Source of the DNA: Limnobacter humi
GTDB taxonomy: Bacteria; Pseudomonadota; Gammaproteobacteria; Burkholderiales; Burkholderiaceae_B
Assembly (NCBI RefSeq): GCF_024518835.1
Contig: NZ_JANIGO010000005.1
Location: 1-64,000 of the forward strand
Direction of reading: 5' to 3'
DNA: 64,000 bases
Both the position numbers and the translations under genes were made by a program. Positions 10,747 through 15,794 of this stretch are shown here, piece after piece (the first letter of the stretch is position 1; each line of letters begins with the position of its first letter). The notes beneath the pieces were generated by a model. It was not told the DNA's origin, did no database searches, and saw only the letters and a list, made by a program, of their open reading frames with translations.

Positions 10747-11448
10747 CTATTGCAAACTGTTCAAGGCCAATATGTGTTGCATCAACTGCGCGGGCGGTAT
10801 TTGTATCGCCATGCGTTCACAGGCTTTTAACAGCCGTTCTGGTTGTTGTTGCACCGCATGGATGGCCTTATTCAGGTCACTCAGAATGGAGTCGCCGTAG
10901 GCGCGTCTGGCTTTCTGGAGGCCCAATTCAAACTCAGCATGTGTAGGGTGCATCATGGCCAGGTCGATCAGGTCTCGGGTATTGACGGAGGGGTCTGCCC
11001 AGCGGTCGGAATTGGCCAACAGTTTGCTTGCAATGAGGTCTGTTTTACGCAGTGTGGCAACGCCGAGTATGTGCTCATCCGGGCCTGGGGTGTCCAACTC
11101 AATCCGACCTTCCAGCACGATTTCAAATTTTATGGGTGTCCCCATCACCAGTAGGCGGGTGCGAATGCCGTATTGATCGGACCGCAGTTCGCCAAATTGA
11201 ACCCACTGACTGGCTGCTGGCAAAAACAAATCCTGAACGCTTCCACCGACTTTGCACAACTGCCGAAGTTGCCGGTAGTGGTCGGTATTCGACACCATGA
11301 AATCCAGGTCGACGGACTCGCGATATTCGCCGTACTGTAGGGCAATGGCTGTGCCCCCACCAAAGTAGCACTGGTGCTCTGCCAGTTTGGGGGCGTTAAG
11401 GCCTTGCAGCGCCAGTGCAATCAATTGATGGTGTTTACGGCTGAACAT
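10747..11448 (-). CDS. AbiEii/AbiGii-type nucleotidyltransferase toxin
   Basis: 233 residues from the ATG at 11448, which overlaps the end of the upstream regulator gene by 14 bp. The nucleotidyltransferase signature is present: FGGGTAIALQYGEYRESVDLDFMV (residues about 29-52), matching the GG-[ST]...D-x-D pattern of the AbiEii (DUF1814) family. Then come KFEIVLEGRIEL and the conserved TLRKTDLIASKLLANSDRW.....RDLIDLAMM. AbiEii proteins transfer nucleotides to tRNA or other targets and are toxins of AbiE-type modules that limit phage infection. The longer frame to 11589 lies over the partner gene and is not supported. Confidence 0.85.
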   Translation of the reverse strand: MFSRKHHQLIALALQGLNAPKLAEHQCYFGGGTAIALQYGEYRESVDLDFMVSNTDHYRQLRQLCKVGGSVQDLFLPAASQWVQFGELRSDQYGIRTRLLVMGTPIKFEIVLEGRIELDTPGPDEHILGVATLRKTDLIASKLLANSDRWADPSVNTRDLIDLAMMHPTHAEFELGLQKARRAYGDSILSDLNKAIHAVQQQPERLLKACERMAIQIPPAQLMQHILALNSLQ

Positions 11449-11908
11449 GCAACAAGGCCTCTTCGAAAGCTTGCTCAAGTAGGGTGATGAACTGTATTTC
11501 GGCTTCGCCCAGTGTTGCAACTTGAACATGGCGCCAGTTGTTTTGATACAGCTTGAACGCAGCCTGCAAGCTGATTTCCGCATTGTCATGGTGCTGCCAT
11601 GCCAATTTTTGCAATTCAGGATATTGAGTGACGCAAACCCGGCTCGGCAGCATGGGTGAATGGCTGTTCTCTTGCGGAGGTAAGGCGCCCAGTAGGCCCA
11701 GTGCAGCCATGGTATTCAGGCAGGCGCCCAACGTAATGCTGGTGCTGCCTTGTTCCAGGCGATGCAAGGTGACACGGGATATACCTGCCGCCAGCGCGGT
11801 TTGCGTGGCCGGCACCTTGAGCGCTTTGCGGCGGTTGGCGATAAATGCGCCAAGCCGCTGTGCGGCTGCGGCGGATTGTTCGAAGGTGTGAGCAATGTTT
11901 TTCGACAT
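11435..11908 (-). CDS. XRE-type antitoxin/regulator paired with the AbiEii-like toxin
   Basis: 157 residues from the ATG at 11908. The N-terminal Cro/C1-type helix-turn-helix is at LGAFIANRRKALKVPATQTALAAGISRVTLHRLEQGSTSITLGACLNTMAALGL (about 18-72). The rest (ALHVQ end, HDNAEISLQAAFKLYQNNWRHV) is helical and unassigned. It is the first gene of a two-gene operon with a 14-bp overlap into the nucleotidyltransferase gene, the usual layout of AbiE-like pairs with a short cognate regulator in front. A perfect inverted repeat just upstream (11911-11958) is the probable operator for self-repression. Confidence 0.8.
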   Translation of the reverse strand: MSKNIAHTFEQSAAAAQRLGAFIANRRKALKVPATQTALAAGISRVTLHRLEQGSTSITLGACLNTMAALGLLGALPPQENSHSPMLPSRVCVTQYPELQKLAWQHHDNAEISLQAAFKLYQNNWRHVQVATLGEAEIQFITLLEQAFEEALLHVQP

Positions 11909-11910
11909 AA

Positions 11911-11958
11911 TGTTTCTTATTATATGCAAAAATATTGTATTGTAAATAATAAGAAACA
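11911..11958 (-). promoter_or_regulatory. Inverted-repeat operator of the AbiE-like module
   Basis: TGTTTCTTATTAT (11911-11923) and its exact reverse complement ATAATAAGAAACA (11946-11958) are separated by 22 bp, immediately upstream of the regulator's ATG at 11908. The arms are 35 bp apart centre to centre. Such sites are commonly bound by XRE antitoxins. The whole stretch is AT-rich, so it can also contain the promoter. Confidence 0.7.
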
Positions 11959-11959
11959 A

Positions 11960-12742
11960 CTAAACTGTTTTGAGGTAACCCAACTCCTGCGCAACCCAAC
12001 GCCAGCGGCGTGGGTCCTTTTTTACCGCAGCAAACCCAGCCCGGCTAAGCCCCAGCCGGCTGTGCGGTGCTTCCCAGGGCTGGCGCAAGCCCTGCGCATC
12101 CACATCGGCACGCAACGCCCACTGCAGGTGTTGCCCGGTTTGAAAGCTGCGCTGTCGCAAAGGCAGGTCTTCAAGCCATGGGGTTTGTGCAGCCAAAGTG
12201 CCCGCCCAAGCCACCACGCTGGGCACATTGAAAGCGCGGTGTGCATACACCAGCGCAGCACAGTCCCCCTGTGCATTCAGGCTGCTCAATAGCGGCACTG
12301 CAGCGCTGCCCAAGGTATCCAATGGCCGCCTGGCAAGTTCTGCCTCAGTGGTCCAACTTCGGGCTTGAACAAACGGCGCATCGGGGTTGGCAAAGGTAAG
12401 CGTGCCCAAAGTATTGGCCCCCACCAGGCTTAGCAACTCCAGTGGGCCCAGCGGCACCTCTGGGTACAGGCTTTGCAGCAGGGCGCAGCCAGCCGGGTTG
12501 GGCAGGTGTTGCTCAAACACCGGAAACAATTCAGGCCAACGGTACAGGTTTCGGCTGGGGGGCATGAGCACGCTCACGGCGGCTTGCTCGATGCTTCCGC
12601 TTGCGTAGTGAAACCAGTATTCACCGCTGTCTTCACAGCCCAGCCAACCACAGGGGCGGCCAGCATTGAACACTTGCAGCAGCTTGACTGGCCCGCCCAG
12701 GCGGGGCAGTTGCCGCAATAGCGGATACTGCTCCAGGCTCAC
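11960..12742 (-). CDS. HipA N-terminal-domain protein without kinase domain (HipS-like)
   Basis: 260 residues from a GTG that overlaps the upstream TGA (GTGA). Residues about 20-125 follow the N-terminal subdomain of HipA (GWLG...GEYWFHYASGSIEQAAVSVLM, then LFPVFEQHLPNP, PLELLSLVGANTLGTLTF). The serine-kinase parts of HipA are absent. The remaining 130 residues (from about SWTTEAELARRPL to WRWVAQELGYLKTV) match nothing I recognise. In HipBST systems the corresponding subdomain is a separate protein, HipS, of about 100 residues; this one is much longer and no HipT kinase is adjacent. It could be a HipS-type antitoxin with an extra domain or a toxin whose effector half is new. Confidence 0.65.
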   Translation of the reverse strand: MSLEQYPLLRQLPRLGGPVKLLQVFNAGRPCGWLGCEDSGEYWFHYASGSIEQAAVSVLMPPSRNLYRWPELFPVFEQHLPNPAGCALLQSLYPEVPLGPLELLSLVGANTLGTLTFANPDAPFVQARSWTTEAELARRPLDTLGSAAVPLLSSLNAQGDCAALVYAHRAFNVPSVVAWAGTLAAQTPWLEDLPLRQRSFQTGQHLQWALRADVDAQGLRQPWEAPHSRLGLSRAGFAAVKKDPRRWRWVAQELGYLKTV

Positions 12743-13023
12743 GGTGTGAGCCCGTCGGTTTTGAAGTAATCAGCCGCGGAATACAGGTCGGGTGCCTCAG
12801 GCTTTCCCGCATGCAGCGCCAAGCCAAACACGCGCAGCACCCGCATGGCGGTGGCAAACGACACGTCTTCTCCCCGTTCAATGCGGAAAATCGTGTCCCG
12901 GCTCACGCCAGCCAGTTCGGCCAGTGTGTCGGCGGTCATTTTTCGGCCTTGGGCACCAGCGGTTTTCCGGTGGGTTTTCACCAAGTGGGCCAAGTCCAGC
13001 GGGTTTTTCAGGTTTTCAACCAT
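12739..13023 (-). CDS. HipB-like XRE-family regulator
   Basis: 94 residues. The helix-turn-helix is MTADTLAELAGVSRDTIFRIERGEDVSFATAMRVLRVFGLALHA (about 29-72), the arrangement seen in HipB-type antitoxins that bind DNA and neutralise or present their partner. It is the first gene of the pair and overlaps the HipA-N gene by 4 bp. A long near-perfect palindrome lies 18-55 bp upstream of its ATG and is the likely autoregulatory operator. Confidence 0.8.
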   Translation of the reverse strand: MVENLKNPLDLAHLVKTHRKTAGAQGRKMTADTLAELAGVSRDTIFRIERGEDVSFATAMRVLRVFGLALHAGKPEAPDLYSAADYFKTDGLTP

Positions 13024-13040
13024 TTCAAATAAAATGAAAA

Positions 13041-13078
13041 ATTCAATAAATAATCCGTATACGGATTATTTAATGAAT
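13041..13078 (-). promoter_or_regulatory. 38-bp near-perfect palindrome, probable operator of the HipB-like regulator
   Basis: Centred between 13059 and 13060: the inner arms AATAATCCGTA and TACGGATTATT are exactly complementary, and the symmetry continues to 13041-13078 with a single mismatched pair (13046/13073). It lies just upstream of the regulator start at 13023. The opposite side faces gmd (13171), so it might also influence that gene. Confidence 0.75.
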
Positions 13079-13170
13079 ATATCAGACGTTTTTTGATTTG
13101 CGGGCACTAGCCAGTGTTCAGGGCTTTGACCTAAGCTTTGGCTCGTTATTGATCAATACATGCACACACC

Positions 13171-14289
13171 ATGGCCAAAGTTGCGCTGATTACCGGCATT
13201 ACCGGACAAGACGGGTCCTACCTTGCAGAATTTTTGCTCGCCAAGGGCTACGAGGTGCATGGCATCAAGCGCCGGGCGTCCCTGTTCAACACCCAGCGGG
13301 TGGACCACATTTACGAAGACCCGCATATGGAAAACGCCCGCTTTAAGTTGCACTATGGCGACCTCACCGACAGCTCCAACTTGACCCGCATTTTGAAAGA
13401 AGTGCAGCCCGATGAGGTGTACAACCTGGGTGCGCAAAGCCATGTGGCCGTGAGCTTTGAAAGCCCGGAATACACCGCCGATGTGGACGCCATGGGCACC
13501 TTGCGTTTGCTGGAAGCCATTCGCTTTTTGGGCCTGGAAAAGAAGACCCGGTTTTACCAGGCATCAACGTCGGAATTGTATGGCTTGGTGCAGGAAATTC
13601 CCCAAAAGGAAACCACGCCGTTTTACCCTCGCAGCCCGTATGCGGTGGCCAAAATGTACGCGTACTGGATTACCGTGAACTACCGCGAAAGCTATGGCAT
13701 GTACGCCTGCAACGGCATTTTGTTCAACCATGAAAGCCCGCGCCGCGGCGAAACCTTTGTAACCCGCAAGGTAACGCGTGGTTTGTCCAACATTGCAGTG
13801 GGCCTGGAGCCTTGCCTGTACATGGGCAACATGGATGCGCTGCGGGACTGGGGGCACGCCAAAGACTATGTGGAGATGCAGTGGATGATGCTGCAGCAGG
13901 ACCAGCCTGAAGACTTTGTGATTGCCACCGGCGTGCAGTACAGCGTGCGTCAGTTTATTGAGATGAGTGCAAAGGAACTGGGCGTGACCCTGCGTTGGGA
14001 AGGCACCGGTGTGGATGAGCGCGGCATTGTGGCCAAAGTAGACGGCAACAACGCACCAGCCTTGAAAGAAGGCGATGTGATTGTGCGCATCGACCCCCGT
14101 TATTTCCGCCCGGCGGAAGTGGAAACCCTGCTGGGCGACCCCACCAAGGCCAAGGAAAAACTGGGTTGGGTGCCCCAAATTACCCTGCAAGAGATGGTGG
14201 CCGAAATGGTGGCTGCCGACCTTGAAACAGCCAAGCGCCATGCCTTGCTGAAGCAGCACGGCTACAGCGTGGCGGTTAGCCGCGAATAA
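13171..14289 (+). CDS. gmd: GDP-mannose 4,6-dehydratase
   Basis: 372 residues of the short-chain dehydrogenase family. It converts GDP-mannose to GDP-4-keto-6-deoxymannose, the first step to GDP-L-fucose and related 6-deoxyhexoses, in the cytoplasm. The NADP-binding loop [15 protein letters not shown] is at residue 8, the [13 protein letters not shown] motif near 90 and the catalytic [10 protein letters not shown] near 155. [21 protein letters not shown] is typical of Gmd. The length is normal. The next gene, fcl, starts 9 bp after its stop and performs the following step. Confidence 0.95.
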
Positions 14290-14298
14290 GGGGCTCAC

Positions 14299-15273
14299 AT
14301 GCTGAGCCTGAATTCAACAATTTATGTGGCAGGCCACCGCGGCATGGTGGGCAGCGCCATTGTGCGCCGCCTGCACACTTTGGGTTACCACAACCTGGTG
14401 GTGCGCACGCACGCGGAATTGAACCTGTGCAACCAGGCCGATGTGCAGGCTTTTTTTGATGCAGAAAAGCCCGATGCGGTGGTGTTGGCGGCAGCCAAGG
14501 TGGGCGGCATTCACGCCAACAACACCTACCCGGCCGATTTCATCATGGACAACCTGTTGATGGAATGCAACGTGGTGCGTGCTGCCCACCACAGTGGTTG
14601 CCAGCACTTGCTGTTTTTGGGGTCCAGCTGCATTTACCCCAAACTGGCGCCACAGCCCATGCGGGAAGACGCCCTGCTCACTGGCATTTTGGAAAGCACC
14701 AACGAGCCCTATGCCGTGGCCAAAATTGCGGGTATCAAGTTGTGTGAAAGTTACAACCGCCAACACGGCCGGGATTACCGCAGCGTGATGCCCACCAACC
14801 TGTACGGCGAAAATGACAACTTCCACCCGGACAACAGCCACGTGATACCGGCCATGATGCGCCGCTTCCACGAGGCAAAGCTGCGCGGCGATGCCGAGGT
14901 GGTGGTGTGGGGAACTGGCAAACCCATGCGGGAATTTTTGCATGTGGATGACATGGCGGCTGCCAGCGTGCACGTTCTGCTGCTGGACGAGGCCACTTAC
15001 AAGGCCAACACCCAGCCCATGCTGAGCCACATCAATGTGGGCACCGGCGTGGACTGCACCATTGCCGAGTTGGCGCACACCATGGCCCGTGTGGTGGGCT
15101 TTGAGGGCCGCCTCAGCTTTGACACCACCAAGCCCGATGGCACCCCCAGAAAGCTGATGGACGTAACCCGGTTGAAATCACTGGGTTGGCAATATACGAT
15201 TAATCTGGAGGATGGCTTGAAACGGACGTATGCCTGGTACCAGCAGAATGTGGACCAGGTGAGGCAATTGTAA
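14299..15273 (+). CDS. fcl: GDP-L-fucose synthase
   Basis: 324 residues. This epimerase-reductase turns the Gmd product into GDP-L-fucose. The Rossmann start is [17 protein letters not shown] (residue 9) and [18 protein letters not shown] is diagnostic of the family. The Ser/Tyr/Lys triad lies in [10 protein letters not shown] and [19 protein letters not shown]. The ATG at 14299 follows a GGGGCTCAC ribosome-binding sequence. Together with gmd it supplies fucose for the surface glycan. It is followed 17 bp later by an RfaH/NusG-like gene. Confidence 0.95.
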
Positions 15274-15290: not shown

Positions 15291-15794
15291 ATGGCCCACT
15301 GGTATGTGATGTACACGAAACCCCGCCTGGAAACCCAGGCTGTGGAAAACCTGGAGCGCCAGAATTACCGGGTGTTTTACCCGCAGGCCCGTGTGCGAAA
15401 GCGCCGGTCCACAGGCTTGGCCGAGGTGGTTGAACCGTTGTTCCCTCGGTACCTGTTTGTTCGGCTGGAAAGCGGGGTGGATGATTTTTCGAAGTTGCGG
15501 TCCACCAAAGGCTGCATTGACCTGGTGAAGTTTGGCGGCAAGGCCACGCCCGTGCCGCAAGCCCTGGTGGACTTGATTCAAAGCCAGTTGGCCGATGATG
15601 GTTTGCTCCACCTGGAAGCCCTGAACGGCATGCCCAAGGTGGGCAGCAGTATGCGGGTGGCCGACGGGCCGTTTGAAGGCTTGATGGCCACCATTGCCCA
15701 GCACAAGGGTGCAGACCGGGTGCTGGTGCTGCTCAATGTGTTGGGTGGCGAGCGCCGGGTGGTGTTGTCGGCCACCCAGCTGCAATCACCCTAG
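15291..15794 (+). CDS. RfaH/NusG-like transcription antiterminator
   Basis: 167 residues with the NGN domain (HWYVMYTKPRLETQAVENLERQNYRVFYP; PRYLFVRLE near 50) and a C-terminal KOW segment (VADGPFEGLMATIAQHKGADRVLVLLNVLGGERRVVL). The main NusG is normally encoded with the ribosomal genes, so a second copy inside a sugar locus suggests an operon-specific antiterminator of the RfaH type that lets polymerase run through a long polysaccharide operon. A strong ribosome-binding site (AAAGGGGG) precedes the ATG. I looked for an ops-like element nearby and did not find one. Confidence 0.85.
   Translation: MAHWYVMYTKPRLETQAVENLERQNYRVFYPQARVRKRRSTGLAEVVEPLFPRYLFVRLESGVDDFSKLRSTKGCIDLVKFGGKATPVPQALVDLIQSQLADDGLLHLEALNGMPKVGSSMRVADGPFEGLMATIAQHKGADRVLVLLNVLGGERRVVLSATQLQSP

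Follow-up and report, generated by a model that had tools for sequence, protein, structure and literature searches.

HipB and HipA, the products of toxin-antitoxin loci such as hipB-hipA of E. coli K-12, have been described to form a HipB2A2 complex which binds operators and autoregulates (PMC8262856), and the N-domain coupled to HipA is reported to be responsible for dimerisation during DNA binding (PMC9758233). The Hip kinase families HipT, HipG, HipM, HipI, HipJ and HipL are described as keeping the kinase motifs (PMC8262856), and kinase-dead HipA mutants of Caulobacter were reported to cause no growth arrest (PMC8545095). In the HipBST systems, the HipS antitoxin is encoded together with the HipT kinase; residues E63 and W65 of HipS have been reported to enter the kinase site, Trp65 being kept in some HipS proteins only. 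Two further arrangements are HipN, a putative antitoxin in which a HipS-like part is joined to a HIRAN domain (PMC8262856), and the composite HipA of Legionella pneumophila, lpg2378-lpg2379-lpg2380, whose pieces are proposed to rebuild a kinase (PMC9758233). In the open-access literature, searched by title and the start of the abstract and with subscription journals mostly outside its scope, no description of a HipBA pair with a dead kinase was found. In this paper, we have analysed a candidate for such a pair in Limnobacter. If our reading is true, a HipA would have lost catalysis and yet been kept, together with its HipB partner, throughout a genus. This would be a clear natural example of a toxin turned into a non-toxic regulator; it would allow one to ask what HipA does besides phosphorylation, and its position opposite gmd, the gene of GDP-mannose 4,6-dehydratase, makes the regulatory target directly testable.

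The pair is located in a stretch of 64,000 nucleotides from Limnobacter humi, hereafter the window; other genomes are denoted by G and loci by L. The features of the pair and of the genes that follow it are:

12739-13023, minus strand: HipB-like helix-turn-helix (HTH) protein (ORF of 94 aa, ATG start; Pfam HTH_3, E 1.1e-7)
11960-12742, minus strand: predicted kinase-dead HipA derivative (ORF of 260 aa, GTG start; 4-nt overlap with the HTH gene)
12392-12679, minus strand: HipA N-subdomain 1 or HipS-like domain, residues 22-117 of the 260-aa protein (Pfam Couple_hipA and model match)
11963-12391, minus strand: C-terminal half, residues 118-260, most likely an eroded and truncated HipA kinase part, assigned through relatives and not from its own sequence alone
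10747-11959, minus strand: AbiE-like pair, HTH-AbiEi at 11435-11959 and AbiEii at 10747-11589 (PADLOC)

The initial annotation, made from the letters of the window, had described a HipB-like regulator joined to a kinase-less HipA N-domain protein, with the likeness to HipA limited to the N-terminal part and with an AbiE-like pair in the place where a HipT would be expected, and all of this was borne out. The HTH protein scores 32.2 bits against HTH_3 (cut-off 23), and its region SRDTIFRIERGED is well conserved in an alignment of 12 copies of the family described below. Couple_hipA covers residues 22-117 of the 260-aa protein with an E-value of 4.6e-9 and 37.1 bits (cut-off 22.5), while HipA_C (PF07804) is absent from this protein in the Pfam search, and beyond residue 117 neither Pfam nor NCBIfam gives a match at E up to 1. 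NCBIfam finds couple_hipA and couple_hipB on the two proteins below threshold only, the latter (TIGR03070) with 35.4 bits against a cut-off of 71.65, and the PADLOC match to the 260-aa protein stops at residue 82. As the GTG start lies inside the 4-nt overlap, the two proteins are probably translated together. The next two genes match AbiEi (C-terminus, E 1.7e-16) and AbiEii (E 3.3e-65), and no kinase gene was found among them. A tblastn search with the C-terminal halves of three relatives found no lost C-terminal piece below the stop at 11960 (best E 0.30). A seeming second copy in the same genome (G000:C12:337902-338189, E 6.6e-4) contains five stops and runs antisense to a 420-aa ORF (L074), and was rejected as a chance match.

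The locus shares with HipBA the order of an HTH gene followed by a HipA-type gene, the overlap of the two genes, N-subdomain 1, the order of the kinase fold in relatives and, in the window, a palindrome upstream of the HTH gene; unlike HipBA, it has no catalytic loop and, in the window and G154 copies, no ATP-binding lysine, and about 100 C-terminal HipA residues are missing from the core copy that we have modelled, the window copy being shorter still. As in HipBST, the HTH gene precedes a gene whose HipS-like domain carries no kinase motifs. HipS, however, comprises about 100 aa, whereas the proteins here are 242-316 aa long and include a kinase remnant; no HipT gene comes next, and Glu63 and Trp65 of HipS are not kept in the window. 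The two-part build with a HipS-like part recalls HipN as described in PMC8262856, yet no Pfam family, HIRAN among them, is matched by the second part here, and the pair of the window has no Hip kinase gene beside it. The Legionella arrangement likewise consists of HipA in pieces of less than kinase size; there, however, a kinase is proposed to be rebuilt (PMC9758233), whereas the proteins here have lost the catalytic residues, and in the window the pair has no C-lobe gene next to it.

When 268 genomes of the taxonomic family were searched with the 260-aa protein, 58 of them contained matches, and loci were extracted for 30 of the 74 match rows. Most matches were frames of more than 400 aa that matched in the N-domain only, and the group of kinase-less proteins was found within the genus itself. 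This protein family has 13 copies including that of the window, all in Limnobacter, with sizes of 242-316 aa, and the HTH gene lies directly upstream of the HipA-like gene in all 12 copies first compared (the window and 11 others) as well as in the 13th, L051, which joined only the later comparisons (nearest relatives, trees, motif and neighbour checks, palindromes). With 12 further copies in the same order, the pair of the window is not a chance ORF arrangement. Six of the nine named loci that the family profile recovered belong to L. parvus, L. litoralis and Limnobacter sp. MED105, P1, 130 and CACIAM 66H1, and the remaining three to two Gammaproteobacteria metagenome bins; these bins, like the genome of the window, were counted in the genus by kinship. 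By the HTH profile, the pair is present in 11 of the 16 genus genomes and in 11 of the 13 good ones; G150 has two copies on two contigs and a contamination of 4%, so these may come from two strains. Order-wide, the family profile matched at least 5 of 399 genomes at E 1e-8, two of them from the genus itself and the other three with frames of 436, 457 and 192 aa; because the genomes were drawn evenly and at most five candidates were scored per genome, this search may miss copies. In a survey of the class with PF13657, the frames among the matches listed were mostly longer than 400 aa. Neither a scan of genome contigs with the single protein nor the phages gave a match, and three plasmid records matched in part.

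In the tree of HipA-like proteins, the 13 copies form one clade (support 100/99; 13 of 34 rows; 200 of 200 bootstrap trees), in keeping with the kinase having been lost once; midpoint rooting was applied, and there were long-branch warnings, L041 and L042 being among the rows concerned. In the alignment of these proteins, the L042 row begins within its ORF, at a codon that is not a start codon, and the L035 row is cut by a contig end. In the HTH tree, on the other hand, the family is not recovered as a single clade; such a grouping appears in 26% of the bootstrap trees. The seven nearest HTH proteins outside the family are HipB partners of 406-419-aa HipAs in the same taxonomic family (59.6-44.1 bits by profile score). 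The window protein itself has its best outside matches in L012, L013 and L015 of this 406-419-aa HipA group, with L017 among them, and the profile of the family N-domain prefers L031, L047 and L046, so that the nearest relatives vary by method.

The catalytic motif of HipA is gone from the family as far as checked. The D.H.KN catalytic motif occurs in none of the 12 family proteins checked, as against 28 of 33 HipAs, and its D-x-H-x-K-N form is absent from the window protein; PF07804 was not matched in the five other copies scanned either (L038, L033, L041, L042 and L032). The only lysines of the window protein are residues 20, 241, 242 and 258, with none between 21 and 240, and the ATP-binding lysine is missing from the window copy and, in the alignment, from the G154 copy. 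K181, D309, N314 and D332 (E. coli HipA numbering) are kept in 34 of 34 aligned HipAs, while the G154 copy has V, a gap, D and D at these positions. The G154 protein thus looks like a HipA with its catalytic core cut out.

It is through this G154 protein (L041, 309 aa) that the C-terminal half of the family can be linked to HipA. On a profile built from 33 HipA proteins of 370-520 aa, drawn from the loci collected in the analysis, its residues 4-238 fall on positions 8-245 of 418 with 90 bits, spanning the N-domain and reaching into the N-lobe of the kinase. Its C-terminal half alone matches the HipA profile collinearly over 118 columns (hhalign 97%, E 8.6e-11); none of 60 shuffles reached the score, and the reversed sequence gave E 0.5. 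The profile of the C-terminal half of the whole family matches HipA in the same place (E 2.8e-4, 39 columns, 0/60 shuffles), and that of the core group gives a short match of 34 columns (E 0.025, 0/60 shuffles). The initial annotation had counted a close full-length homologue with a kinase domain as a sign that the protein is simply a truncated HipA, and G154 does bridge the family to HipA, but it too is without the catalytic loop.

The window copy is reached from here through its relatives. Compared with HipA by itself, its C-terminal half is not significant, as 6 of 60 shuffles reach the score, and with G154 it gives a marginal Smith-Waterman match (p 0.0245; 13/500 shuffles). It does match the C-terminal profile of the core family (0/100 shuffles), and its residues 136-260 match the G145 copy (0/500). 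From residue 136 onward, the shuffles reaching the score were 1/500 each for G146 and G155, 7/500 for G156, 21/500 for G147, and 71/500 and 156/500 for the two copies of G150, and there was no match to G151 (90/500), G144 (254/500) or G143 (457/500); the Smith-Waterman score of 73 of the whole C-terminal half against G151 (0/500) is owed to a stretch just behind the N-domain. A profile match of the C-terminal half to antigen P35 was weak (E 0.056-0.071), level with the HipS matches of the same search.

For the G145 copy (L038), structure prediction with AlphaFold2 reached a mean pLDDT of 71.0, the best of five models (44.5 to 71.0), with block means of 78-92 over residues 151-290. In VIA-align, its residues 22-295 superpose on residues 2-336 of E. 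coli HipA (3tpb) with Z 13.1 and an rmsd of 3.6 A over 238 residues; HipA, HipT-type and HipS-type entries, a part of them bearing no title but bacterial kinase, fill the top 23 rows, and no kinase from outside the Hip group exceeds Z 4.7. Foldseek alone gives E 0.045, with Hip-type entries at ranks 1-11. Since the superposition stops at position 336 and E. coli HipA has 440 aa, the G145 protein ends about 100 residues short. The model of the window protein itself is poor (mean pLDDT 58.6), above all in the C-terminal half, and the N-domain is the one part of it that could be superposed on known chains, those of HipS and HipA (Z from 13.8 down to 8.6; 13.3-13.8 on HipS-type chains), so the assignment of its C-terminal half rests on the relatives.

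The C-terminal half of the family is thus most likely an eroded, truncated HipA kinase fold and no new effector. Two suggestions of the initial annotation, a HipS that has acquired a new domain and a toxin whose effector half replaces the kinase, hence find no support: by profile and by model, the region concerned is a HipA kinase fold in relatives. A toxin with a new C-terminal effector domain would explain why nothing in Pfam or NCBIfam is recognised past residue 117 and why PADLOC stops at residue 82, but given the kinase fold of the same region in relatives we regard it as very improbable. We attach hardly any probability to a composite kinase, in which the protein would supply the N-domain and N-lobe and a separate gene the C-lobe, as proposed for the split HipA of L. 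pneumophila lpg2378-lpg2380 (described in PMC9758233): the two genes that come next are an AbiE-like pair, the window and G154 proteins lack the ATP lysine, and G147 and G156 carry the pair without a HipA_C match anywhere in the genome. The same two genomes make a HipBST system with a distant HipT less likely.

The main rival to the reading that we prefer is immunity, or anti-addiction, in which the HTH protein and the HipS-like domain would neutralise a resident or incoming HipA or HipT in trans, as HipS does HipT. HipS is indeed an antitoxin built of the same subdomain (PMC8262856, PMC10627512), 9 of the 11 genomes that carry the pair also contain HipA_C genes, and hipBA immediately adjoins the pair in G151 and G155. 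However, two pair genomes, G147 and G156, are without a HipA_C match, the residues E63 and W65 of E. coli HipS align with N and A in the window protein, and, judging from the G145 model, the protein's own kinase remnant would cover the surface used by HipS. On balance, we consider immunity unlikely.

We have also asked how far the pair is decaying. The initial annotation had suggested a degraded system, and it was right in so far as the catalytic motifs are gone; the core copies, however, are under purifying selection. Among eight such copies (28 pairs, the window copy not among them), dN/dS is 0.08-0.22 for the C-terminal half in 18 pairs, the other 10 not being computable, 0.12-0.44 for the N-terminal half in 26 of the 28 pairs, and 0.04-0.26 for the HTH gene in all 28. 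The frame is open in all 12 copies uncut by a contig end, and in the 13th, L035, it is open up to the contig end. Neutral decay would mean a dying hipBA operon in which the window copy is further along than the others, and it could call on the shorter window protein (260 aa versus 282-302 aa in the core copies), its divergent C-terminal half, the G151 copy of 242 aa, and the fact that purifying selection was seen in core copies only. Against this stand the intact frames, core-copy dN/dS values well below 1 in both halves and in the HTH gene, and one shared chromosomal place for 12 of the 13 copies, and we hold neutral decay to be improbable. Simple decay of the pair is therefore unlikely, and with purifying selection acting on core copies that have lost their catalytic motifs, a retained remnant is favoured over a pseudogene.

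This shared chromosomal place lies beside gmd, which is divergent from the pair in the window:

13171-14289, plus strand: gmd, GDP-mannose 4,6-dehydratase, candidate co-regulated gene (Pfam PF16363, E 1.3e-157)
14299-15273, plus strand: GDP-fucose synthase-like gene after gmd (ORF; BLAST cluster with orthologues)
13024-13170, no strand: divergent intergenic region of 147 bp between the HTH gene and gmd (ORF positions)
13047-13072, no strand: perfect palindrome of 26 bp, TAAATAATCCGTATACGGATTATTTA, candidate HipB-type operator (palindrome scan)

We take the second of these genes to be a GDP-fucose synthase from gene order and family; its orthologue in L038 matches PF01370. gmd is a neighbour of 12 of the 13 copies of the pair. 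Nine of these are directly divergent, with 121-183 bp between the start codons, and the other three have other genes in between; the copy of G151 lies elsewhere, away from the gmd of its genome. Altogether, gmd is present in 14 of the 16 genus genomes: G142 and G153 have neither gmd nor the pair, and G148, G149 and G152, two of which are incomplete (85 and 65%), carry gmd but not the pair. The tree built for gmd has little resolution.

In Limnobacter, the neighbourhood of gmd is a hotspot of toxin-antitoxin genes. Besides the pair, it holds the AbiE-like genes in the window, Fic in G155 (L037) and G152 (L070), a Polbeta nucleotidyltransferase with a 139-aa partner in G147 and G150 (L036, L035), and, in G152 (L070), only a hipB with a HipA fragment of 196 aa; hipBA directly adjoins the pair in G155 (L037) as well as at the displaced copy of G151 (L032). 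The AbiE pair of the window has a promoter-like site of its own at 11946-11919 (11 of 12 consensus bases; one found versus 0.7 expected) and matched nothing by BLAST in the 11 other loci of the comparison; it was therefore treated as a separate module. What can be concluded from the adjacency of gmd is weakened by the hotspot.

The palindrome of the window has arms of 13 bp, which were equalled in none of 200 shuffles, and lies 23 bp before the start codon of the HTH gene; its 16-bp core has a single occurrence in the genome when up to two mismatches are allowed. The scan also reads 13047-13072 as a terminator-like hairpin, T-rich after it on the minus strand, but the gene to be terminated lies downstream of it. 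Within 140 bp upstream of the other 12 family copies, exact arms reach at most 8 bp, so the palindrome is not conserved, and an operator conserved across the genus was looked for upstream of the family copies and not found. This lack of conservation, next to a well-conserved HTH recognition region, weakens the reading of the palindrome as an operator. Among the nearest hipBA relatives, two of seven hipB genes have strong upstream palindromes (L015, arms of 14, 0/200 shuffles; L012, arms of 10, 1/200), and the other five have no strong one.

Taken together, we think it fairly probable that the pair is a HipBA derivative with a dead kinase that has been kept as an autoregulator, the kinase part acting as a structural co-regulator and not as a toxin. 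The HTH protein and the dead HipA would form a HipB2A2-like complex, which would bind the short divergent promoter region, possibly at the palindrome 13047-13072 in the window, and repress its own operon; the pair would thereby retain that half of HipBA biology which consists in DNA binding and autoregulation, and would have shed the toxin. Through the shared promoter region the complex might also tune gmd and GDP-fucose synthesis. Such a control of gmd is plausible, but the adjacency could be an inherited position in a toxin-antitoxin hotspot, and the G151 copy away from gmd and the three genomes with gmd alone speak against it. A more specific proposal, that the HipB-like repressor and the dead HipA jointly control the gmd promoter as a genus-specific switch for cell-surface sugar synthesis, with the pseudokinase as a ligand- or partner-sensing co-repressor, is offered tentatively and with more doubt than belief.

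Some further genes around these loci deserve mention. Downstream of the kinase-dead gene, an ORF of about 860-900 aa is conserved in two genomes (L040:2616-5306 and L036:2511-5087), and Pfam recognises nothing in the L040 ORF up to E 0.1. In G152, which is without the kinase-dead pair, an overlapping pair of 109 and 169 aa lies between Fic and hipB (L070:8200-9035), presumably another toxin-antitoxin pair by its AbrB-type and RelE/YhaV-type look. In the window, the gmd and fucose genes are followed by a gene of 167 aa (15291-15794, plus strand) which forms a BLAST cluster with a NusG-type protein of L042 (PF02357), and which may be a NusG paralogue specific to the polysaccharide operon.
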